A DNA stretch of 33,690 nt from an uncultured Methylococcaceae bacterium (lineage in GTDB: Bacteria > Pseudomonadota > Gammaproteobacteria > Methylococcales > Methylomonadaceae), in NCBI GenBank assembly GCA_903938485.1, contig CAJADF010000065.1:1-33690 (forward strand), given 5' to 3'. The notes under the pieces are model-generated. The model worked only from the letters and a program-made list of their open reading frames with translations. It was not told the DNA's origin and did not search any database. Of the stretch, positions 713 through 16,693 are shown in pieces. Within the stretch, counting starts at the first letter, position 1; each line of letters starts with the position of its first letter. The position numbers and the translations under genes were made by a program.

Positions 713-924
713 ATGAATTGTAAAGTATGAATATAAAGGTTTGAAAAGGTGTTAAGTAACCAGAATACTTGGCCAGATATTTTAAGTGGTTTCTTTAAAT
801 ATCAATATAAAATTTACCTAGCAAATGGTTATTGATTTATTAAATGCTTCCCGCAAAAGTACATCTCCATTAATAAACTGCAAATTCTAACAATTTTTTG
901 CTTAAAAATAATTAATTAAGACTT

Positions 925-2271
925 TTATTTCTTAAAGTAGCCACTCACCACCGCGCTAACAGACAATTCATTTTTAGCTAAAGGCTTGATAATCGTGAGC
1001 GCATCCAACAAAATCCTAAAAGCTCTAGGCACATTGCATATGTTTTCACGCACTAAATCAAAGGCCCCATAGACAGCTAAACACGCAAACTGCTTAATCA
1101 AGGCATAATTATTTCTATTTAAACCGGCCAAAATACTAATTGATTCTTGGGCGTTAGAACCACCACATTTTAAATAATTAAAGACCGCTGCTTTTAATAG
1201 ATTGTTAGACATCACGCCATACAAGGCATTGGCTAATATATTTAAATTAGCATTAGCGCGTTGCCTATCTTGATAATAAGCTTCTATTTTTGTATGAATT
1301 AAATCATTGTTACTAAAGTCAGGCATTGCCAACAAATGCGCGCTTAAAATCTGAATATCAGAAAAGACCGCCGTCAATCCACCACCGGTTAAAGGATGAC
1401 GCATATTTAAAGCATCTCCTAACATAACTGCACCTTTACGAATAATCGGTTTTGCCGCCATGTAGTGATTAGGCATTACCTTAAAGCCACCTTCGTGCAT
1501 GGCTTGTTGGTAACTTTTAAGCATCTCTGCTGGAATATAAGGTGTGACGTTACTGTCTAAATGCTCTTGTAATAAGGCTTTTCTAGGTAATTGATCACCC
1601 GGAAAGTCAATTAACAAGCGCACTTCATTAGATGAAATGGGATAACAAATAAATGGAGTGGGTCCGGATAAAAACACATGCCCATGCTTAGGGAATGGCA
1701 TTGCACAGTCTTTTAAAATAACGCCAATAAAGTACGAAGTCACCGACTTCTCATTATTGCTTAAACTTTCTCTAAAATTTGAAAAGAAGCCATCACTGGT
1801 GATGGTTAAAGGCGCGTGTATAGACTTTATTTCTGAAGTTCCTTCTTCTCTATAACTCACTCCGATAATTTCATTACGCTCGTTTTCTAGCAATTGCAGA
1901 GCTTTGCCTTGTATTTGAGTAACGAAGTTATTTTTTAAAGCGGCGGCTCTGATGTTTTGTAAAAAAAGCCCATTGTGTAAACCCATGCCTTTATAACTAG
2001 CTGGGTAGGGAATGGTTATTTTTTGATCACCGTGTAACAACGCATAACCATCAACCGGTTGCGCCTCGAAGCCTTCTAATAAATGTCCGAGTTGCATTTC
2101 TTCTAAAGATAACACGGCACCCGGCTGTAGTAACTCCCCTACTATGCGCTTCTTTTCCTTAAAGCATTGATCAATCAAGGCAATTCTAATGCCTTTAGGT
2201 GCCAGATAAGCCGCGATAGTAGCACCGGCCATACCTGCCCCAATAATACAAATATCAAATTCTGCTTTCAT
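925..2271 (-). CDS. sqmo: Squalene monooxygenase (squalene epoxidase), FAD-dependent
   Basis: Converts squalene to 2,3-oxidosqualene with O2, FAD and reducing equivalents, the first committed sterol step. The 448-residue protein has a Rossmann FAD motif GAGMAG at 11-16, GELLQPG at 45-51 as in eukaryotic epoxidases, a second FAD/NAD(P)H-type segment TSDGFFSNFR at 158-167, and the diagnostic GDALNMRHPLTGGG at 285-298 that closes the FAD site. The N-terminal membrane anchor of animal enzymes is absent, as in other bacterial forms; the C-terminal part is rich in hydrophobic helices and probably sits on the membrane. It is the last gene of the four-gene minus-strand sterol operon, 44 nt after the cyclase whose substrate it makes. 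Generic FAD monooxygenase is the alternative, but the RHPLTGGG block and the neighbour make squalene the clear substrate. Confidence 0.95.
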   Translation of the reverse strand: MKAEFDICIIGAGMAGATIAAYLAPKGIRIALIDQCFKEKKRIVGELLQPGAVLSLEEMQLGHLLEGFEAQPVDGYALLHGDQKITIPYPASYKGMGLHNGLFLQNIRAAALKNNFVTQIQGKALQLLENERNEIIGVSYREEGTSEIKSIHAPLTITSDGFFSNFRESLSNNEKSVTSYFIGVILKDCAMPFPKHGHVFLSGPTPFICYPISSNEVRLLIDFPGDQLPRKALLQEHLDSNVTPYIPAEMLKSYQQAMHEGGFKVMPNHYMAAKPIIRKGAVMLGDALNMRHPLTGGGLTAVFSDIQILSAHLLAMPDFSNNDLIHTKIEAYYQDRQRANANLNILANALYGVMSNNLLKAAVFNYLKCGGSNAQESISILAGLNRNNYALIKQFACLAVYGAFDLVRENICNVPRAFRILLDALTIIKPLAKNELSVSAVVSGYFKK

Positions 2272-2315
2272 ATTAAGCTACTGGCCCAAATGCTTTAAAT
2301 TTCGTTGGATTTTTA

Positions 2316-4559
2316 TCATCCTTGAATAATTTCCTTATAGTAGCGATTAAGCGCCCAGATTGGAAATATATTTCTATAATTAGCGTACGTTATCATGCAG
2401 TTGTAATTAAAAACACCCGAAATACTCTCCTGTTCCCAATCACCTTGATCTGTCTGCCTACTTTGCAACAAATTAATACCCGCAGCAATTACCGTTCTAT
2501 CAACATTCTCTACAGCCAATAAAGCTAGTACAGCCCAAGCTGTATTTACAACTTGCGAAGTTTCGGCCTCAGTATAAACCAACTTAGAGCAAGACTTAAA
2601 GGTCTCACCCCAACCACCATCGGCCTTCTGTTTACCAACTAAAAACGCAACTGCGTTCTGCATACTGTCCGCTAAAACAGCGTCATTATAATAGCCTTTC
2701 CCTTTGGCTTTGCTTAAAGCTTCAACTGCAAACCAAGTGGCATAAGTAAAACAAACAGCCCAGCCACCATACCAAGAACCATCAGACTTTTGTTGCTTAA
2801 GTATAAAAGCTAAACCAGCACTAATTGCTTTATTAAGTTCAGCGCTTTTGTAATCTGGATAAATATGTTGAATCTCTATTAAAGAAATAACACAAGCCGC
2901 CGTACATTCCGTCCAAGAATAATCGATCATTATATCGGCAAACACTTCTGACGGATTTAGTTTCTCTAACCATTTAGGCGCTCTTGATAACTCATAAGTT
3001 GCCCAGCCACCATCCTTATTTTGATATGACAAAATAATATCCACCGCTTGCTGAATACGCTTCTCATCAATCGTTGGCTTAACCAAGCCCGACTCATGAA
3101 CTGCCAAACTAGCACTTAAACCTTCTGCCGTACAATCTGCAACGGGCCAACCATTCTCTGCAGTTGAAAACGGCCAACTTCCTATCATAGGATGTCTAAA
3201 AAACTCCGCATGGGTAGCGTGTTCAGACTTAATTTGGGAATGCTCGATAAAGTTATATGCCTTCTGAACAGTCTCTGGAAACAATTGGCCTAAATCACTC
3301 TCTAGTATGGCGCGCGTTGAAAAGGCGGTATCCCAAAGTTGAGAGCCATTATAACCGCTCATCTTCATACCATCTTCTGCCACCCATAAGTAATCAAACC
3401 AACGCGTTACATGCTGTTTAAACTGCTCAGAGTCTGCACCATAAGCATGCCAGATGCAGATTGAATTAATCACTTTATTGACTGGACCAATATTAATGTA
3501 ATCCGTTTGCTGATCTTCCGCATTTAAATAGCGCAAAATGTAATCTGTCGCTTTTTTACGCAACCAACCACAACTGATTTTTTCATAACTATTAGTGAAT
3601 AAATTCATCCACTTTAATACTGGCGATAAAACCGTATACGAATCTTTATCACACACTGTATTACGTTGCTGAGGCCAATTAATCTCAGCATAGTCTTCGC
3701 TATAAATCTCTGTCCTTAGCGATAAAATCAAATCATTTTCGGGCATTTTGATACGTTGCGCGTAACAATAAGCCATCGGCAAATACACCATGCGACTATG
3801 GCACCAATAACGCCAAGGATGAAACGGTAACCATTTAGGAAATAACCACATCTCTGGAAACAGGCTATTAAAGCCCTGCCAGTCATATAAATTTAAGATG
3901 GATAAATAAAACTTACCCCAAGATGGAATACCCGTGGCACCACCATTAAGCTTAATCCACGCTCTGGCTTTAACTAATGCCGGCTCATCTTTATCTACGC
4001 CCAACAACCTTAATGATACATATTGCATCACCGTGCCAAACATAGTCGATTCACCTTCAATATGCATTCCCCAGCCTGCATCTGCATTTTGGTGATTAAA
4101 CACGTAAAGCTTCATCATTTCTTGATGGGCTTTTGGAAAGGGCGTTTGAGTGACATAAGAGGCAATTAATAAGCCCGGTAATAAAAATAATGGCCCGCCA
4201 TAATCGCCAGCCCAATGCCCATCAGCACTTTGTAAACTGGCAAAGTAGTTGATACCCTTTATAACCGAGTCCGCTACTTTTTGCTGTTCAGGATTATTTG
4301 TTTGCGGCGTTACCCCTGTATAACCTCTAAAGTTATTAGCGACCGCTGCAAATCTAAAGACTTTATCACCTGAGTTGGGATTGACTTGCTTATCAAACTT
4401 AAAATCTTCAGCTGCTAAAGATATTTCCTGAGCCGAGATGTTATGGGCATTTTGTAAATGCTGATTGATATCCGTTGATGTTGGCTTAAAAGCCCAGATA
4501 TGTCGGCCTTGCTCAGTTAATAACTGCCAGTTTTTCCAACTAGGTTTTACACTATGCAT
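2316..4559 (-). CDS. osc: Oxidosqualene cyclase, probably lanosterol synthase
   Basis: Cyclises (S)-2,3-oxidosqualene to a tetracyclic sterol. The 747-residue length fits the family. The catalytic acid lies in DCTAE at 475-479 (Asp475) instead of the DxDD of squalene-hopene cyclases. Cys476 and Cys552 correspond to the pair hydrogen-bonding the acid in human OSC. His254 (in WCHSRMVYLP) and Tyr522 (in GGWATYE) match human His232 and Tyr503, which steer toward lanosterol. Asn469 and Val473, just before the acid, match the Asn/Val of lanosterol synthases rather than the His/Ile of cycloartenol synthases. QW repeats are visible (for example QNKDGGW, QKSDGSW, QKADGGW, QTDQGDW). The gene starts 5 nt after the NTF2-like gene and is followed by the epoxidase. 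Product assignment is inferred from residues; parkeol cannot be excluded. Confidence 0.95.
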   Translation of the reverse strand: MHSVKPSWKNWQLLTEQGRHIWAFKPTSTDINQHLQNAHNISAQEISLAAEDFKFDKQVNPNSGDKVFRFAAVANNFRGYTGVTPQTNNPEQQKVADSVIKGINYFASLQSADGHWAGDYGGPLFLLPGLLIASYVTQTPFPKAHQEMMKLYVFNHQNADAGWGMHIEGESTMFGTVMQYVSLRLLGVDKDEPALVKARAWIKLNGGATGIPSWGKFYLSILNLYDWQGFNSLFPEMWLFPKWLPFHPWRYWCHSRMVYLPMAYCYAQRIKMPENDLILSLRTEIYSEDYAEINWPQQRNTVCDKDSYTVLSPVLKWMNLFTNSYEKISCGWLRKKATDYILRYLNAEDQQTDYINIGPVNKVINSICIWHAYGADSEQFKQHVTRWFDYLWVAEDGMKMSGYNGSQLWDTAFSTRAILESDLGQLFPETVQKAYNFIEHSQIKSEHATHAEFFRHPMIGSWPFSTAENGWPVADCTAEGLSASLAVHESGLVKPTIDEKRIQQAVDIILSYQNKDGGWATYELSRAPKWLEKLNPSEVFADIMIDYSWTECTAACVISLIEIQHIYPDYKSAELNKAISAGLAFILKQQKSDGSWYGGWAVCFTYATWFAVEALSKAKGKGYYNDAVLADSMQNAVAFLVGKQKADGGWGETFKSCSKLVYTEAETSQVVNTAWAVLALLAVENVDRTVIAAGINLLQSRQTDQGDWEQESISGVFNYNCMITYANYRNIFPIWALNRYYKEIIQG

Positions 4560-4564
4560 AGCTT

Positions 4565-5167
4565 TTAACGATTAAATAAAGCAATACGCACCATTGCCAT
4601 AAAGCCTTTCAATTTCTTAAACAAACTAGGCTGTGGTCTTAAGCGCTCATGACCAGGTAATAATTGACCTTTTGCTAATTTACCAATTTTTGTTTTTACT
4701 GCAGGATCTAATTTCCCATCACCAGCCAACTCAAAAAACAAGGCTTTTACATTACCTAAATCAAAGAAATCGCGTTGCCATTCCCATTTATAGTTACCGC
4801 CATAACGAAACCAAGAACCGCCAATCCCTTCTACTTGATAATGCGTACCATCTTCTCGCACTGCTGGAGAAACTTGGGTCCATAAACCAATAACCTCACC
4901 CTGTTTTTCATCAATTAAAATACGATGATAAGGATAACGCCATTCTTCAAAACCTTCCATTTGTACACCTAAGGCCCACTCTTCAATCTCTTTACGACTG
5001 CGCGCGACAAACTCTTCATTGGGGCCAATATTCCAACGGTATTCCGCATCATCGGTATACATTGCCCCTAAATATTTAGGCCAGTTACCTTCTTTTTCTG
5101 CGTCACGGTTAGCTTGTAACCAACGCTCTACCATTTCTTCAAGTTCTGCTCTGGGATATGCCGCCAT
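4565..5167 (-). CDS. NTF2-like (SnoaL/ketosteroid-isomerase fold) protein of the sterol operon, function unknown
   Basis: A 200-residue protein without signal peptide. Residues about 5-150 read as an NTF2-like cone fold: N-terminal helices (AELEEMVERWLQANRDAEKE), a YTDDAEYRWNIGP segment, then strands ending in HYQVEGIGGSWFRYGGNYKW and WQRDFFDLGN. This fold binds small hydrophobic molecules and includes ketosteroid isomerase, limonene-epoxide hydrolase and polyketide cyclases. The last 50 residues extend past the fold and end in a basic, amphipathic stretch (LFKKLKGFMAMVRIALFNR) that could touch the membrane. It is 11 nt after cyp51 and 5 nt before osc, so it is surely co-expressed with them. 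Plausible roles are sterol-intermediate isomerase, hydrolase or carrier. I do not recognise a specific named family, and a structural or accessory role is equally possible. Confidence 0.85.
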   Translation of the reverse strand: MAAYPRAELEEMVERWLQANRDAEKEGNWPKYLGAMYTDDAEYRWNIGPNEEFVARSRKEIEEWALGVQMEGFEEWRYPYHRILIDEKQGEVIGLWTQVSPAVREDGTHYQVEGIGGSWFRYGGNYKWEWQRDFFDLGNVKALFFELAGDGKLDPAVKTKIGKLAKGQLLPGHERLRPQPSLFKKLKGFMAMVRIALFNR

Positions 5168-5178
5168 GATTGTCTCTA

Positions 5179-6819
5179 TTACGTATTTGTGGTTTTAATA
5201 AGAATTGCTTTGGTAGGGCAATATTTTTCAGCGAGCCGGGCTTTTTCTAAAGCCTCTAAACTAGGATTATCCTGAAGTACAGTCACATTGCCTTCGTCAT
5301 CTACCTGAAAAAGCTCTGGTGCTTCTGCCATACAAGTCGCATGCCCTTGACATAATTCTCTATCTAAATAAATTTGGAAGCCTGTTGGTTCAACGGTTTG
5401 CGTCTGCGCGACGCTAGACTCAGCAATTTCTTCAGCACTGGCCTGCAGATTTTTGCGCTTAACATAACGCACTCGACAAGGTGATAACGGTTGCACCACC
5501 ATCTGCGTAAAATCATCTTGATATTGGTCTTTTTCATCAACCAATTCAAAAGTATAACGTCGTAATAAGATGCTAAAAATAGCTTTTAACTGCAACATAG
5601 CAAAGGCATTGCCCGTACACTTATGCTTGCCACCACCAAAAGCAATCCAACTAAACGGTCTTGCATCTTCTTGACGTTCTTCTGAATACCGCTCTAAATC
5701 AAACTTTTCTGGATCAGGAAATATTTCTGCAATACGATGTGAAACGCGTGGCGAAGCGCATACGTATTTACCTGCCTTAACGGTATAGCCTTTAAAGTGA
5801 AAATCCTTCATCACTTTTCGAATTAAAAAAATCAATGGCGGATGCAATCGTAAGACTTCTTTAACAACATTCTCTAGAACCGGAATTTCACGCAAAGACT
5901 GAAAAGTCACTTCACCATCAAAACCAAACAGTTGATCTAATTCAGTTAAAACCAACTCCAATTGCTCAGGTCTTCTAGCTAATTCTAATAAAGTCCAAGC
6001 GGCAGTCCCAGCAGTTGTATGATGACCTGCGAAGATAGTCCCAATCAACATACCTGTAATTTCATGGGGCGATAAAGCCGTGCCATCATCATATTTTGAA
6101 TCGATTAATAACTGAAATGCATCATCACTCTTTTCAGCTTTTAAAGCTCTTTTAGCAATAATACCCGTCACTAACTCTTGTAAGCGAGCTCGCGCTTTAT
6201 CTCTGCGACGAAATACGGGGAGTGGCAAGTACGGAAAGACAAATGCTAAAGGATTAACGCCTTTTTCCAAATCATGATAAATCTTGGCAAATTCTTCATT
6301 TAACTCATAACGAAACTCATCGCCCAAGAGACAATGACTAGAGGTGTAAATTGTGAGTTCTTTCATGAACTCCAACAGATCAATTTCACCTGTTTCACCC
6401 CAGCCGGCAATCATATCTTCGACTTCTTGCACGATAACTTGCGCATAGCCACGCATAGGTTTATCACGCAAAACTGGCATTAGCATTTTGAGTTGTTGAT
6501 CTTTTTTATGCGGAGGCGCATCAAACACGACACCTTTGCCAAAAATAGGCGTCATAATTTTATAAGCTTGGCTCTGATCCAGCTGTGCATCGGGCGCTCG
6601 AAAAAAAGCTTCATTAGCTTCTGGCCCGGTCATCAAAACCATTTTTTGATGAAACATACGAAACTCACCTATTTCTCCTAGGCTGTTTCTAAGATTCATC
6701 ATATATAAAAAAGGATTTTTGCCGAACTTGAGCATGTGCCCAAAGAGAGGTAATGCACCCGGCATTTTTGGAGGCTCTAGAATAGAAGAGCGAGATTTTT
6801 CTTGATTCGGTTTCGTCAT
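5179..6819 (-). CDS. cyp51: CYP51 sterol 14-alpha-demethylase fused to a 3Fe-4S ferredoxin
   Basis: Removes the 14-alpha-methyl of lanosterol-type sterols in three O2-dependent steps. Residues 1-455 are the P450: CYP51 B' signature from Tyr86 to Asp100 (containing TPIFGKGVVFD), I-helix AGHHTTAGT at 264-272 with the His typical of CYP51, ExxR at 321-324, heme loop FGGGKHKCTG with axial Cys401. A linker (about 456-480, Ala/Glu/Gln/Thr-rich) leads to a ferredoxin at about 481-546 with Cys490, His493, Cys496 and Cys534 (CxxHxxC...CP), the pattern of 3Fe-4S P450 ferredoxins with His in the second position. The 546-residue fusion matches the layout known from Methylococcus capsulatus. No N-terminal membrane helix is evident. 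First gene of the sterol operon; its ATG has no strong Shine-Dalgarno. A separate ferredoxin reductase is still needed and is not in the window. Confidence 0.97.
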   Translation of the reverse strand: MTKPNQEKSRSSILEPPKMPGALPLFGHMLKFGKNPFLYMMNLRNSLGEIGEFRMFHQKMVLMTGPEANEAFFRAPDAQLDQSQAYKIMTPIFGKGVVFDAPPHKKDQQLKMLMPVLRDKPMRGYAQVIVQEVEDMIAGWGETGEIDLLEFMKELTIYTSSHCLLGDEFRYELNEEFAKIYHDLEKGVNPLAFVFPYLPLPVFRRRDKARARLQELVTGIIAKRALKAEKSDDAFQLLIDSKYDDGTALSPHEITGMLIGTIFAGHHTTAGTAAWTLLELARRPEQLELVLTELDQLFGFDGEVTFQSLREIPVLENVVKEVLRLHPPLIFLIRKVMKDFHFKGYTVKAGKYVCASPRVSHRIAEIFPDPEKFDLERYSEERQEDARPFSWIAFGGGKHKCTGNAFAMLQLKAIFSILLRRYTFELVDEKDQYQDDFTQMVVQPLSPCRVRYVKRKNLQASAEEIAESSVAQTQTVEPTGFQIYLDRELCQGHATCMAEAPELFQVDDEGNVTVLQDNPSLEALEKARLAEKYCPTKAILIKTTNT

Positions 6820-6910
6820 AACTCAATCATAATAGGGGTACTTTTTAAGAAGGCTTAATAAATGCCACGCAAAAAAAAGCATTAACTTTTAATTTTTCAG
6901 TAAAATTCCA

Positions 6911-6939
6911 AGCATAGGCTAATTTTACGCGGTGACCAA
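6911..6939 (-). promoter_or_regulatory. Possible sigma70-like promoter for the sterol operon
   Basis: On the minus strand TTGGTC and TATGCT are separated by 17 nt in the short gap after pcm, giving a predicted leader of about 85 nt before the cyp51 ATG. The -10 matches 4 of 6 and the -35 only 3 of 6, so this is a weak candidate. It does support the sterol genes forming their own unit rather than reading through from pcm. Confidence 0.25.
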
Positions 6940-6953
6940 TTATTGTACAAACC

Positions 6954-8443: not shown

Positions 8444-8989
8444 GTGGTAAAAAAAAACCTTACACAAGAAGATAAAGATTTATTTCGTCAAAGTATTGGC
8501 CAAGTAAAGACACTTGATTCTAATAAAGTATTATTAAATCAAAAAGACAAGCCTAAACCTTACCCCAAACCTACAAAGACCGATCTAGACGATTCATTAT
8601 TTAACGATACAAGCACCGACTTAGAAAAAGTCGGACTTGAAGATAGCCTGAGCTACACAGCACCAGGCTTACAAAACAATGTGTTAAAGAAATTACGCAA
8701 AGGCCACTTTGGACTTGATGCCGATATTGACCTACATGGTTTAACGAGCAATGCCGCTAAAAATCAACTACTTGTTTTTTTAAATAACTGTATTGCCTCA
8801 AACTACCGTTGCGTACATATTGTGCATGGCAAAGGCTATCGATCAGCAGATAGTCAACCTGTTTTAAAAAATGACCTTAATTTATGGTTAAGACAACATA
8901 AAGACGTCCAAGCTTTTTGCTCTGCACCCCAAAGTGCTGGCGGTACAGGCGCCTTATTTGTTTTATTAAAGGTTAATAATCTCTCTTAA
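8444..8989 (+). CDS. Smr-domain protein (putative nuclease, SmrA/SmrB type)
   Basis: A 181-residue soluble protein. The N-terminal half is polar and probably flexible (Lys/Asp/Pro-rich). The C-terminal half is an Smr domain with the hallmark DIDLHGLT at about 94-101, HIVHGKGYRS, and a terminal GGTGALFVLL block. Smr domains are found in RNA or DNA endonucleases; E. coli SmrB cleaves mRNA at collided ribosomes, but the exact substrate here is unknown. The start is GTG (8444), because no ATG lies in frame near the N-terminus, and no clear Shine-Dalgarno is visible. It is the only plus-strand gene inside the truD-surE-pcm run and its 3' end overlaps truD by 24 nt in convergent orientation. Confidence 0.9.
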   Translation: MVKKNLTQEDKDLFRQSIGQVKTLDSNKVLLNQKDKPKPYPKPTKTDLDDSLFNDTSTDLEKVGLEDSLSYTAPGLQNNVLKKLRKGHFGLDADIDLHGLTSNAAKNQLLVFLNNCIASNYRCVHIVHGKGYRSADSQPVLKNDLNLWLRQHKDVQAFCSAPQSAGGTGALFVLLKVNNLS

Positions 8990-10000
8990 AACGGATGTTG
9001 CGTAACTGCCTGCAGGTAAAGTAAAACCGAGCTCTAATATATCTTCTTGTATAAACTGCCAATTTAAGTCGTTTACTTTAACGCGCAAAGCGCGTCTATC
9101 GCTCTCTACTCCAGCAGCAATTAAACCTTGAACCAAGTCTGGATAACTATTCAAAATTGAACTTTCAAGCTCTAAAGCCAATGCAGATACGCTGACATCC
9201 CCTTTACCACATAAAGCACCGGAGATATGTATTTCCTGTGCTTGCAGACGCCGAATAATTTCTGCATCGGGCTGATCTGATTTAAAACTACTATGCGAGC
9301 CATCAAACACATAAGTATCACCCACCAAAGCCTGATTCCAAGTTTGATTTGCTACTCGATACCCTAAAATATGATTAAACAAATATGACCGAACTGCTGA
9401 CAAGTACAAACTACGCTGCTCTCTGCCCACCTTTGCACCTTGAAACATCGCTAGAGCTTTCTGAACATTTAAACCTTTATGACCGAAACGTTGCACACCA
9501 AAATAATTAGCTATGCCTTCAACTTTAATACGCTCTAATTGTTGAGCCGTTTTTTGTTGATCACCTTGCCAATCTTTAATACGCAACTTAAAACTGTTAC
9601 CAGACAATACGCCACGCTTTAATTTTCTGGCATGCCGAATAACCTGAAGTACCTTTATATTATCTGTATTAAATAAAGTCCAATCAGGATCAGCTTTACC
9701 AGGCAACCAAACACTAAACCATTGCGTAGTAACTGCGTGTCGATCTTTTAAACCAGCAAAACTGACATCACGCTGTCTTACACTGGCAAAACGCGCTAAT
9801 TGTCTTGCGACAAACTCGGTATTTTCGTCCGTTTTTTCTATCTGTAAAAAAACATGCTCACCTGCCCCAGAAGGCTCAAAGGCTAAATGCTCTGTTACTA
9901 TAAAATCTTCTGATGTAACTCGGATCTTCCCCTCGCCTGAAGGTCCTCCGTATACATAAGGCCATTCAGGTAGATCAATTATTTGATTGTTATCTTCCAT
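8966..10000 (-). CDS. truD: tRNA pseudouridine(13) synthase TruD
   Basis: Isomerises U13 of tRNA(Glu) to pseudouridine. The 344-residue length is close to the E. coli enzyme. The catalytic Asp is Asp86 in FAGLKDRHAVTTQWFS, corresponding to Asp80 of E. coli TruD. NYFGVQRFGHKG is the second conserved motif, followed by the TruD insertion and a C-terminal motif ending LPAGSYATSVLREI. It lies 59 nt after ispF in the usual ispD-ispF-truD-surE order. The last 24 nt are shared with the convergent Smr-domain gene. Confidence 0.97.
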   Translation of the reverse strand: MEDNNQIIDLPEWPYVYGGPSGEGKIRVTSEDFIVTEHLAFEPSGAGEHVFLQIEKTDENTEFVARQLARFASVRQRDVSFAGLKDRHAVTTQWFSVWLPGKADPDWTLFNTDNIKVLQVIRHARKLKRGVLSGNSFKLRIKDWQGDQQKTAQQLERIKVEGIANYFGVQRFGHKGLNVQKALAMFQGAKVGREQRSLYLSAVRSYLFNHILGYRVANQTWNQALVGDTYVFDGSHSSFKSDQPDAEIIRRLQAQEIHISGALCGKGDVSVSALALELESSILNSYPDLVQGLIAAGVESDRRALRVKVNDLNWQFIQEDILELGFTLPAGSYATSVLREIINL

Positions 10001-10059
10001 AGCAATTTATATATTTACATCCATGCCAAAAAACAGAGCTACTCTTAGCTAGTAACATA

Positions 10060-10533
10060 TTATTTTTCAATCAAAACGACAGCTTGAACGGCAATACCTT
10101 CTTTACGACCCTCAAAACCCAATTTTTCAGTCGTCGTAGCCTTAACATTAATACAATCCACTGCCACTTTTAAATCTTCGGCAATATTAGTGCACATAGC
10201 CAAAATATGCGGCGCCATTTTAGGCGCTTGCGCGATAATAGTTATATCTGCGTTTACTAATAAATAACCTTTTTCTTGCACAATGTTATAGACATGGCGC
10301 AATAAAACACGACTATCAGCACCTTTAAACTCAGGATCTGTATCCGGAAAATGCTTTCCTATATCCCCTAACGCGGCCGCGCCTAATAAAGCATCACATA
10401 AAGCATGTAACACCACATCACCATCAGAATGCGCTTCTAAGCCTTGCTCATAAGGAATTTTAACGCCTCCTAAAATGACATCACCGTCGTCTTTAAAACG
10501 ATGCACATCATAGCCCATACCTACTCTAATCAT
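10060..10533 (-). CDS. ispF: 2-C-methyl-D-erythritol 2,4-cyclodiphosphate synthase
   Basis: Forms the cyclodiphosphate intermediate of the MEP isoprenoid pathway, supplying IPP/DMAPP and, in this organism, squalene for hopanoids and sterols. The zinc ligands are in GYDVHRF (Asp8, His10) and [33 protein letters not shown] near the C-terminus binds the CDP moiety. The length of 157 residues is standard. It overlaps the end of ispD by 8 nt, indicating coupled translation. Confidence 0.98.
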
Positions 10534-11224
10534 TTTGATGCTCCATATAAAACTGCGCTAAGGCTAAATCTTCTGGTCGGGTAATTTTAATATTATCAGG
10601 ACGACCCTCTACTATCTTCGGCTGTAAGCCTTGCAACTCTAATGCACTGGCTTCATCAGTGATGGCAGGATTACCTTCTGCAATCTCTAATGCATTTTTT
10701 AAACTACCGTACTTAAACATCTGTGGTGTTAATGCCCGCCAAATGTGACTTCTATCTAAGGTACCTACAATATTTTTACCCTGTACATCTTTTAGAGTGT
10801 CATGAGAGGATAAAGCCAAAATCCCACCCACCTCATCCGCACGCAAGGTATCAATTAATAAATTTATATCTGTAGCTGTAATACAAGGCCTAGCAGCATC
10901 ATGAACCAAGACCCAGTCTTCATCTGATGCCAAGTCTCTAATTGATTTTAATGCAGACAATACTGAATCAGCTCGCTCTTTACCGCCATCAGCGGTGATC
11001 ACTTGTTCATGCCCAGAAACCTCTAATTCTGGCCAATAAGGATCTTCTTTTGAAATAGCCACCGCAACTGCTGTAAATACATTGGCACTTAATAAGCGCA
11101 ACAAAGTATGTTCAATGACTGTTTTACCTGCGAGTTCCAAATATTGTTTGGGCCGGTCTGCGTTCATACGCTTACCGACACCGGCAGCAGGAACGACTGC
11201 CCAGAAGTTGATAGTGCTTGTCAT
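10526..11224 (-). CDS. ispD: 2-C-methyl-D-erythritol 4-phosphate cytidylyltransferase
   Basis: Transfers CMP from CTP to methylerythritol phosphate in the MEP pathway. The N-terminal nucleotide-binding block [19 protein letters not shown] contains the conserved Arg and Lys; [10 protein letters not shown] and ITDEASALE are further family motifs. The length is 232 residues. Its ATG overlaps the stop of the upstream ion-channel gene (ATGA), and its 3' end overlaps ispF. PyrG, encoded about 3 kb upstream, makes the CTP it uses, though a terminator separates the two units. Confidence 0.98.
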
Positions 11225-11688
11225 TTATTTTGTTTTTCCAGCGCATCTAAGCGAGCATGTAATCTGGCAAGTTCCTGCAAAACTTTGCTTTCTTCTATCT
11301 CTATTTGATCCAAATCATTTTCAATTGATTGCACATTATTACCCCAAGCATCAATATTTTTACCAATTAAATTTGCAGATAATAACGCCGTAAATAAAGA
11401 GAAAAGAACTAATCCGAATAGAATCAAGGCGGCCGATAAAATACGACCTAAGAAAGAAGTTGGAACAACATCACCAAAACCCACGTGTGTCATTGTCACC
11501 CATGCAGACCATATGCCGTCGAACAAAGAATGTATATTAGTATCTAAAATAAACAATAACAAACCAGCACCAACAGAGACAGTAAAAGCCAAAATCAATA
11601 AATTCAACAAACCTTGCTTATGACTTAAATCATTAAGTATTGTTTTTAATAATGACAAGGCTTCTTTAATAGTTTCTAAAATATTCAT
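11221..11688 (-). CDS. Small two-TM potassium-channel-like protein with an unusual filter
   Basis: A 155-residue inner-membrane protein: TM1 about 28-49, pore helix and filter about 55-73, TM2 about 80-106, then a charged helix/coiled coil (about 117-153). The pore reads T-M-T-H-V-G-F-G-D at 65-73, aligning with T-A-T-T-V-G-Y-G-D of KcsA. Two features differ: His68 takes the place of the Thr whose side chain lines the innermost K+ site, and Phe replaces Tyr, which is common. It lacks a voltage sensor and RCK domain. It overlaps ispD by 4 nt and starts just after the ftsB terminator, so it probably opens its own transcript. K+ selectivity is likely but not certain. Confidence 0.85.
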
Positions 11689-11744
11689 AAATTAACTTTT
11701 TAGTAATAAATGCATAGACATATAAAATTTGTTTAAAACATAAA

Positions 11745-11796
11745 CAAAAAAGGCGACAACCCAAAAGTGTTTAACACTCTTAGCCTGCCGCCTTTA
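11745..11796 (-). terminator. Terminator of the pyrG-kdsA-eno-ftsB transcript
   Basis: On the minus strand an outer stem AAAGGCG/CGCCTTT (arms at 11789-11795 and 11749-11755) encloses an inner perfect hairpin AGTGTT-TA-AACACT-like sequence around 11766-11777, followed by a run of T. It sits directly after the ftsB stop and before the ion-channel gene, cutting the region into two transcription units. Confidence 0.7.
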
Positions 11797-11812
11797 TGAA
11801 ATGCTTATAACA

Positions 11813-12082
11813 TCACTCAAGCACCTGGAAAAAGGTTTCACCCTCTCTGATCATGCCCAACTCATTCCTGGCTCTCTCTTCGATAGCTTCTTGCCCTTTT
11901 CTTAAATCTTCAACTTCCGCATAAAGAGCCTTATTCCTTAGCACCTTTTCTTCAGCTTCTTTATTTAAATCATTAAGTTGCAGCTGGTATGACTTAACCT
12001 GCTCTATTCCTCCATCACCAAACCAAAGTCGATATTGCAAAAGCCCAATTAACAAAACCACAACCGCAAGAAGAATTTTCAT
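11813..12082 (-). CDS. ftsB: Cell division protein FtsB
   Basis: Bitopic inner-membrane divisome protein that pairs with FtsL and FtsQ at the septum. The 89 residues show a short cytoplasmic start, one TM helix at about 4-20 (ILLAVVVLLIGLLQYRLWFG) and a periplasmic coiled coil at about 28-65, then the conserved RARNELGMIREGETFF segment. Its location next to eno is conserved across gammaproteobacteria. It lies 78 nt after eno and is followed by a terminator. Confidence 0.95.
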   Translation of the reverse strand: MKILLAVVVLLIGLLQYRLWFGDGGIEQVKSYQLQLNDLNKEAEEKVLRNKALYAEVEDLRKGQEAIEERARNELGMIREGETFFQVLE

Positions 12083-12160
12083 GATGTTACAACCAATTAG
12101 AAAGCCCCATGTTCCTATCTATGATAGATTATCACGCAGGACTTTCATGCAAGACAAACC

Positions 12161-15914
<3,754 letters not shown>

Positions 15915-16429: not shown

Positions 16430-16693
16430 ATGATTCGCATTAAAGAACTTACATCAGAAGAAAGAGCAACTTTAGAAAACGTGAAAAAAAACCATGCTGG
16501 TTACATGCCTCGTATGAGAGCACACGCAATTTTATTAAGCGAATCTGGTTTTGAAGTTCAAGAATTATCTGAAATATTTGGTGTTTGCAGACAAACCACC
16601 GCGACCTGGTTAAAATCATGGAATAAAGAAGGTTTAGCAGGTTTAGAAGACAAACCAAGAAGTGGCCGCCCTCGTAAAGAACAAACAGCTTAA
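16430..16693 (+). CDS. Solo helix-turn-helix protein related to IS630-type transposase N-terminus, copy A
   Basis: An 87-residue protein consisting of one winged/HTH DNA-binding unit: LTSEERATLENVKKNH helix, PRMRAHAILLSESGFEVQELSEIFGV with the HTH proper and CRQTTATWLKSW as probable recognition helix, ending DKPRSGRPRKEQTA. In IS630-family transposases and relatives this domain continues into a DDE catalytic domain, which is absent here. The paralogue at 22921-23181 is 63/83 identical over the shared region and stops at the same place after GRPRK, so this is a stable short protein rather than a random truncation. An AGGG lies about 10 nt before the ATG. It probably binds DNA; its target and role are unknown. 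Confidence 0.8.
   Translation: MIRIKELTSEERATLENVKKNHAGYMPRMRAHAILLSESGFEVQELSEIFGVCRQTTATWLKSWNKEGLAGLEDKPRSGRPRKEQTA

Follow-up and report, generated by a model that had tools for sequence, protein, structure and literature searches.

The window is a 33,690-nucleotide (nt) stretch of DNA from an uncultured Methylococcaceae bacterium (assembly GCA_903938485.1, contig CAJADF010000065.1), and it makes up contig C65 of a draft assembly of 2.51 Mb in 134 contigs, estimated to be 99.95% complete. Near its start lies a compact sterol locus encoding a cytochrome P450 51 (CYP51) fused to a ferredoxin, an NTF2-like protein, an oxidosqualene cyclase (OSC), and a squalene monooxygenase (SQMO) (Table 1). 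All four open reading frames (ORFs) are uninterrupted and lie on the minus strand; cyp51 is separated from the NTF2-like gene (bsr) by 11 nt, bsr from osc by 5 nt, and osc from sqmo by 44 nt. These coordinates agree with a preliminary description of the DNA, which had placed the genes head to tail as a unit leading from squalene to a 14-demethylated sterol; the ORFs, domains, and closest solved relatives also support that broader claim. The description had further stated that transcription order is opposite to pathway order, but this is no simple reversal, as the genes encode steps 3 (cyp51), 4 (bsr), 2 (osc), and 1 (sqmo).

Table 1. Features of the sterol locus and its borders (window coordinates; aa, amino acids)
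Feature	Coordinates	Strand	Description
cyp51-ferredoxin	5179..6819	-	546 aa; CYP51-ferredoxin fusion, sterol C-14 demethylase; operon gene 1
bsr (NTF2-like gene)	4565..5167	-	200 aa; predicted 8,14-Bsr, NTF2-fold bacterial 8,14-sterol reductase
osc	2316..4559	-	747 aa; oxidosqualene cyclase, probably lanosterol synthase
sqmo	925..2271	-	448 aa; squalene monooxygenase; operon's final gene
pcm-cyp51 intergenic	6820..6953	-	134 nt; probable promoter region
sqmo-phosphofructokinase (pfk) intergenic	713..924	-	212 nt; probable end of unit; pfk on same strand

The four genes very probably constitute a single operon for a methanotroph-type sterol, which would be made in four successive steps, from squalene to 4,4-dimethylcholesta-8(14),24-dien-3beta-ol (probability roughly 0.88). 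Specifically, SQMO would convert squalene to 2,3-oxidosqualene, and the cyclase would fold this into lanosterol. CYP51 with its fused ferredoxin would then remove the C-14 methyl group to give 4,4-dimethylcholesta-8,14,24-trienol, a diene that the bacterial 8,14-sterol reductase (8,14-Bsr, or Bsr) would reduce and isomerise. The present analysis contributes the gene identities, their order and conservation, the active-site residues, and the finding of no later genes. The CYP51 and Bsr reactions are published for relatives, and the cyclase product, co-transcription, and the end product are inferred.

The CYP51 protein matches the Pfam P450 and Fer4_15/Fer4_13 domains and combines a P450 heme motif (FGGGKHKCTG at 394) with a C-terminal single-cluster ferredoxin (CxxHxxC...CP at 490), as a ferredoxin-fused CYP51 should. 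Its best solved relative is 6mcw (PDB title Cytochrome P450 51, 551 aa), which matches at 735.6 bits over residues 15-541 and covers both domains. We take 6mcw to be the published CYP51-ferredoxin of Methylococcus capsulatus. SQMO is a squalene monooxygenase by its PF08491 match (266.2 bits against a cut-off of 20.1) and its FAD/substrate-side motifs GAGMAG (position 11) and GDALN (position 285), and its closest solved relative is human squalene monooxygenase 6c6n (278.6 bits).

The cyclase contains the N- and C-terminal SQHop_cyclase domains, passes the TIGR01787 model at 678.8 bits (cut-off 322.7), and carries a DCTAE motif at 475, which together identify an oxidosqualene cyclase. Human lanosterol synthase 1w6k is its closest solved relative (692.6 bits). 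The cyclase is probably itself a lanosterol synthase, for which the criterion was a Val at the position of Ile481 in cycloartenol synthase (CAS) and no His at the 477 position. An alignment and a script place Y403, N469, and V473 at the sites by which lanosterol and cycloartenol synthases are told apart, a Y-N-V triad that we take to be the lanosterol signature. The same positions in 34 related cyclases read Y-N-V in 27, Y-Q-V in 6, and were unreadable in 1. One passage in the available text of PMC6423090 supports I481V.

The NTF2-like gene is identified from its sequence as the 8,14-sterol reductase of the pathway, predicted to reduce and isomerise the CYP51 product. In the available text of Lee, Giner, and Welander (J Bacteriol, May 2026; PMC13277303), the 8,14-Bsr of M. 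capsulatus Texas is an NTF2-superfamily protein that converts the CYP51 product 4,4-dimethylcholesta-8,14,24-trienol to 4,4-dimethylcholesta-8(14),24-dienol in E. coli. Six pocket residues were mutated in that work, of which Y43 and D133 are required for activity and Y37 and Y78 are required as aromatics. The same text states that bsr often adjoins cyp51, and its Fig. 1 legend mentions gene clusters with an NTF2 gene.

The window Bsr is 68% identical along its length to the Texas homologue, taken to be L126, the one Bsr locus found for this strain (locus tag not readable). All six pocket residues (Y37, Y43, Y78, Y80, D133, and D136) are present, and they are invariant in 22 aligned homologues. 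An AlphaFold2 model of the protein (pLDDT 93.4, pTM 0.86) has SnoaL/NTF2-like enzymes as its top Foldseek matches (best E 5.7e-07, TMq about 0.5); ketosteroid isomerase 1OH0 is not among the 50 matches listed. Homology to a characterised protein, the six residues, and the NTF2 fold thus all point to 8,14-Bsr, and the Pfam SnoaL_2 match is weak (21.0 bits, below the cut-off of 27). By sequence, the only solved structures matched were designed Scone proteins (E 1.4e-06), apart from a single weak match; these were read as low-complexity beta matches and set aside.

The preliminary description had placed both C-14 reduction and C-4 demethylation outside the window. The C-4 part stands, since the window contains no such genes, and the C-14 part falls because the NTF2-like gene is the predicted 8,14-Bsr. 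The description had also proposed a genome-wide search for a canonical C-14 reductase. PF01222 (ERG4/ERG24) gave 0 matches in the window's genome, while the positive control G010 matched at 3.8e-123 and genomes G074 and G187 gave only partial matches below the cut-off. This was the wrong test, and the absence does not refute the pathway: the canonical enzyme would be dispensable here because Bsr performs the step. Absence of PF01222 is published for most aerobic methanotrophs. A "hypothetical" gene in a sterol operon that supplies the missing C-14 reduction step means that genome screens based on ERG24 wrongly call such pathways incomplete.

The end product in this genome is probably 4,4-dimethylcholesta-8(14),24-dien-3beta-ol; the pathway would stop at this 4,4-dimethyl sterol because no SdmA, ERG24/ERG4, or DHCR24-like gene was found. 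The genome-wide search for SdmA suggested in the preliminary description returned 0 matches, and the only two Rieske-family matches in the genome fall in open reading frames 113 and 209 codons long. No close BstA was found, the best BstA-like match having 24% identity over residues 234-899. A DHCR24-like gene of the Methylobacter luteus type likewise gave 0 matches in the genome, with G127 and G074 positive. The full M. luteus-type set (sdmAB plus bst) was found neither beside the operon nor elsewhere in the genome, with SdmA and BstA as the genome-wide queries. At the head of the pathway, the genome has one squalene-synthase-type gene (PF00494), which can supply squalene; it sits on contig C47, where its neighbour is a second PF13243 cyclase gene that we interpret as squalene-hopene cyclase.

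Conservation was assessed in 201 genomes sampled from the same family, with OSC counted at 66% identity or more. OSC is present in 69 of these genomes and bsr in 65, so the earlier remark that sterol synthesis is rare in bacteria is overstated for this group. Both genes occur together in 63 genomes and neither in 130, while 2 have bsr without osc and 6 have osc without bsr. Of the two with bsr only, G108 has the gene close to the edge of a contig and G169 is 63% complete. Of the six with osc only, G019, G091, and G142 are 98%, 95%, and 96% complete, with OSC in G142 cut at a contig start, and G045, G187, and G193 are 75%, 66%, and 71% complete.

Regions from 20 of the 65 bsr-positive related genomes keep the order and strand cyp51-bsr-osc-sqmo in 19 cases; the twentieth, from G122, has cyp51-bsr only at that site. 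All four genes, with osc above 60% identity, are present in 38 of the best 80 of 105 named loci, a set that overlaps the 201 genomes (many are the same). The order is kept in 38 of 38, M. luteus included, and the remaining loci are cut by contig ends or differently laid out. The operon arrangement is not due to chance, because order and strand are kept across these related regions and loci. The closest relatives by OSC identity are G190, G200, G012, and G062.

Bsr is the most conserved of the four proteins in 31 of 34 near-complete loci. Median identity to the window across these loci is 92.2% for Bsr, 84.3% for CYP51, 81.4% for SQMO, and 77.1% for OSC, and mean pairwise distances agree (0.089, 0.150, 0.171, and 0.215, respectively). 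Independent evolution of the operon genes was considered and rejected: distances correlate positively for each of the six gene pairs (r 0.557 to 0.844; 34 loci), and 0 of 999 permutations reach each value. The correlations give no indication of recent gene exchange within the family, and they do not address an older replacement of osc-sqmo.

The operon appears to join two modules of different affinity, cyp51-bsr and osc-sqmo. Seven Methylococcus-type loci, M. capsulatus included, were chosen for comparison, with the cyp51 and bsr values taken from six. The window proteins are 59-63% (CYP51) and 67-71% (Bsr) identical to those of the six loci, against 34-37% (OSC) and 21-23% (SQMO) for the seven. 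By phmmer, the window OSC scores 692.6 bits with the human enzyme versus 413-446 with three Methylococcus-type cyclases, and the window SQMO scores 278.6 bits with the human enzyme versus 67-74 with three Methylococcus-type enzymes. The modules also occur apart: 13 named Methyloprofundus-type loci have no osc and carry bsr, an SdmA-like gene, and cyp51 either whole or as its end only, and in G122 osc-sqmo lies elsewhere on the same contig as cyp51-bsr.

These affinities allow a tentative proposal, held with somewhat less than even confidence, that the operon is a chimera of a native bacterial cyp51-bsr pair and a eukaryote-like osc-sqmo pair that replaced the Methylococcus-type pair in an ancestor of the family. 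In this small-genome lineage the pathway would have been pared to just the four genes, with 4,4-dimethylcholesta-8(14),24-dienol alone as its working membrane sterol, without C-4 demethylation or a Bst transporter. The unequal affinity of the gene pairs bears on how bacterial and eukaryotic sterol pathways exchanged parts.

The four genes likely share one mRNA, as judged from their spacing and conservation. A promoter-like match (TGTACA-16-TAAAAT) lies at 6949-6922 in the stretch between pcm and cyp51, which is partly conserved in three close relatives; since site counts are not above those of shuffled sequence, this match is not functional evidence. No terminator-like match occurs in the 212-nt stretch at 713..924. 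The placement of the operon between pcm and phosphofructokinase recurs in four close relatives (L033, L034, L035, and L037).

Several points weigh against the reading of the locus as one complete four-step operon. There are 14 promoter-like sites versus 21.7 expected from shuffles and 6 terminator-like sites versus 5.9, with no clear excess of either. The genes pcm and pfk flank the operon on the same strand, and there may be read-through into pfk or transcription starting from pcm. The cyclase scores 652.9 bits with TIGR03463 (2,3-oxidosqualene cyclase), under its cut-off of 851, and is filed as an OSC outside that subfamily. A sequence search of Bsr against solved structures returned no NTF2 relative, and its discoverers describe 8,14-Bsr as lacking a recognised cofactor site (PMC13277303, available text). 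Since the assembly is a draft in 134 contigs, genes that were not found may be hidden in its gaps.

Three other explanations were weighed against a single operon with a terminal Bsr step. The locus might not be one transcription unit at all, with cyp51-bsr and osc-sqmo as two adjacent cassettes that each have their own promoter; the separation of the gene pairs in Methyloprofundus-type loci speaks for this, as does a bsr-osc gap that ranges over 5-566 nt versus 18-66 nt for osc-sqmo (34 loci). Here, however, bsr and osc are only 5 nt apart, which leaves no room for an ordinary promoter, and the gaps between the four genes contain no terminator-like match, which makes separate cassettes improbable. 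It is more improbable still, indeed very doubtful, that the NTF2-like protein serves CYP51 as a carrier or structural partner, or acts on some other substrate in the manner of a ketosteroid isomerase. NTF2/SnoaL folds do serve many functions, isomerases, cyclases, and epoxide hydrolases head the Foldseek list with identities of roughly 11-23%, and the SnoaL_2 match falls below its cut-off; yet the 68% identity to the Texas homologue, the retention of all six studied residues, the same site beside cyp51, and a genome with no ERG24 to perform the step otherwise all argue for the reductase. The isomerase and carrier roles were dropped after the available text of PMC13277303 and the residue check.

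The explanation with the best claim against a four-step pathway, though still an unlikely one, is that the pathway continues through an unrecognised C-4 demethylase or C-24 reductase, or through one lost in an assembly gap. Near-full-length SdmA occurs in 7 of 21 genomes of genus g1, including G062 and G200, which are close by OSC identity, and the assembly is in 134 contigs. Against this stand the completeness estimate, the failure to find SdmA either as a protein or via the Rieske family, and the lack of SdmA in G190 (98%) and G012 (94%) as well, the nearest relatives by OSC apart from G200. Arrest at the 4,4-dimethyl sterol thus remains the favoured reading. Genomes like this one, with the four core genes and with no SdmA, BstA, or DHCR24-like gene found, would offer a natural way to learn which sterol modifications a bacterium really needs; the signature expected from them in sediments would be a distinct 4,4-dimethyl 8(14)-sterol.

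The sdm, bst, and bsr genes show exceptions among the relatives. In the Methyloprofundus-type loci (L099, L100, L101, L102, L104, L105, L106, L108, L109, L110, L112, L113, and L114; Bathymodiolus symbionts included), bsr is followed by an SdmA-like Rieske oxygenase with 41-43% identity to M. luteus SdmA. An SdmB-like gene (39-42%) is present in 9 of the 13, giving a divergent C-4 demethylase pair attached to cyp51-bsr. In genus g19, genomes G045 and G019 contain OSC and CYP51, with Bsr not found and no ERG24 match. In G045 (75% complete, 4% contamination), the site where bsr would be expected, flanked by cyp51 and an SdmA-like gene, is a 791-nt stretch (L150:2068-2858) that has no bsr-like match. 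G019 is 98% complete and has a CYP51 fragment only. If real, these genomes would be an exception to the statement that all sterol-producing methanotrophs have Bsr.

According to published text, bst homologues occur in all other methanotroph genomes with sdmAB. Close BstA is found in 3 of the 21 g1 genomes, and G062, G166, G178, and G200 of this genus have near-full-length SdmA and no close BstA (G200 is 84% complete, the others 99-100%). G039, also of g1, gave no SdmA match. Conversely, G014, G029, G053, G064, G082, G120, and G195 have close BstA (at least 76% identity) without SdmA, and two of these, G064 and G120, also lack both Bsr and a close OSC match.

Elsewhere in the window, a conserved same-strand block upstream of the operon (8966-15914) is read as truD, ispF, ispD, eno, kdsA, and pyrG, with the truD reading checked by family search. 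A small ORF at 16430-16693 has winged helix-turn-helix matches and a sub-cut-off IS630 transposase match, and is perhaps a transposon remnant.

Several known systems frame the operon. The CYP51-ferredoxin of M. capsulatus (6mcw) likewise holds P450 and ferredoxin in one chain, with no notable architectural difference from the window protein. The 8,14-Bsr of M. capsulatus Texas shares with the window Bsr the identity level, all six studied residues, and the NTF2 fold given above. Its gene is not beside other sterol genes, according to the available text of PMC13277303 and to L126, which has no cyp51, osc, or sqmo match, whereas the window bsr is. The cyclases also differ, that of M. capsulatus being 34-35% identical to the window OSC. 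The available text of Wei et al. 2016 (PMC4919349) reports methanotroph cyclases from two groups, of which group 2d is the eukaryote-like one. The M. capsulatus enzyme belongs to group 1, an assignment partly inferred from that text, and the window cyclase fits group 2d, the Methylococcales lanosterol synthases of the eukaryote-like clade, by similarity.

The closest parallel is the cluster of M. luteus IMV-B-3098, which has the same four genes in the same order and on the same strand. Table 4 of Wei et al., within the available text, lists the M. luteus cyp51 as MetluDRAFT_1253, the cyclase as 1255, and the squalene epoxidase as 1256; in the IMV-B-3098 locus (L088/L049), bsr occupies the remaining place, leaving 1254 for bsr. 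The M. luteus cluster continues with a short-chain dehydrogenase/reductase (SDR) gene, a Rieske oxygenase gene, and a resistance-nodulation-division (RND)-type gene, read as sdmB, sdmA, and bstA-like by their domains and published neighbourhood (PMC10942540, available text), whereas the window continues with phosphofructokinase. M. luteus also has a DHCR24-like gene, in contrast to the window's genome, where no SdmA, close BstA, or DHCR24-like gene was found. The window operon is real and well conserved, and most of what it shows is already on record: it is one more instance of a known arrangement.

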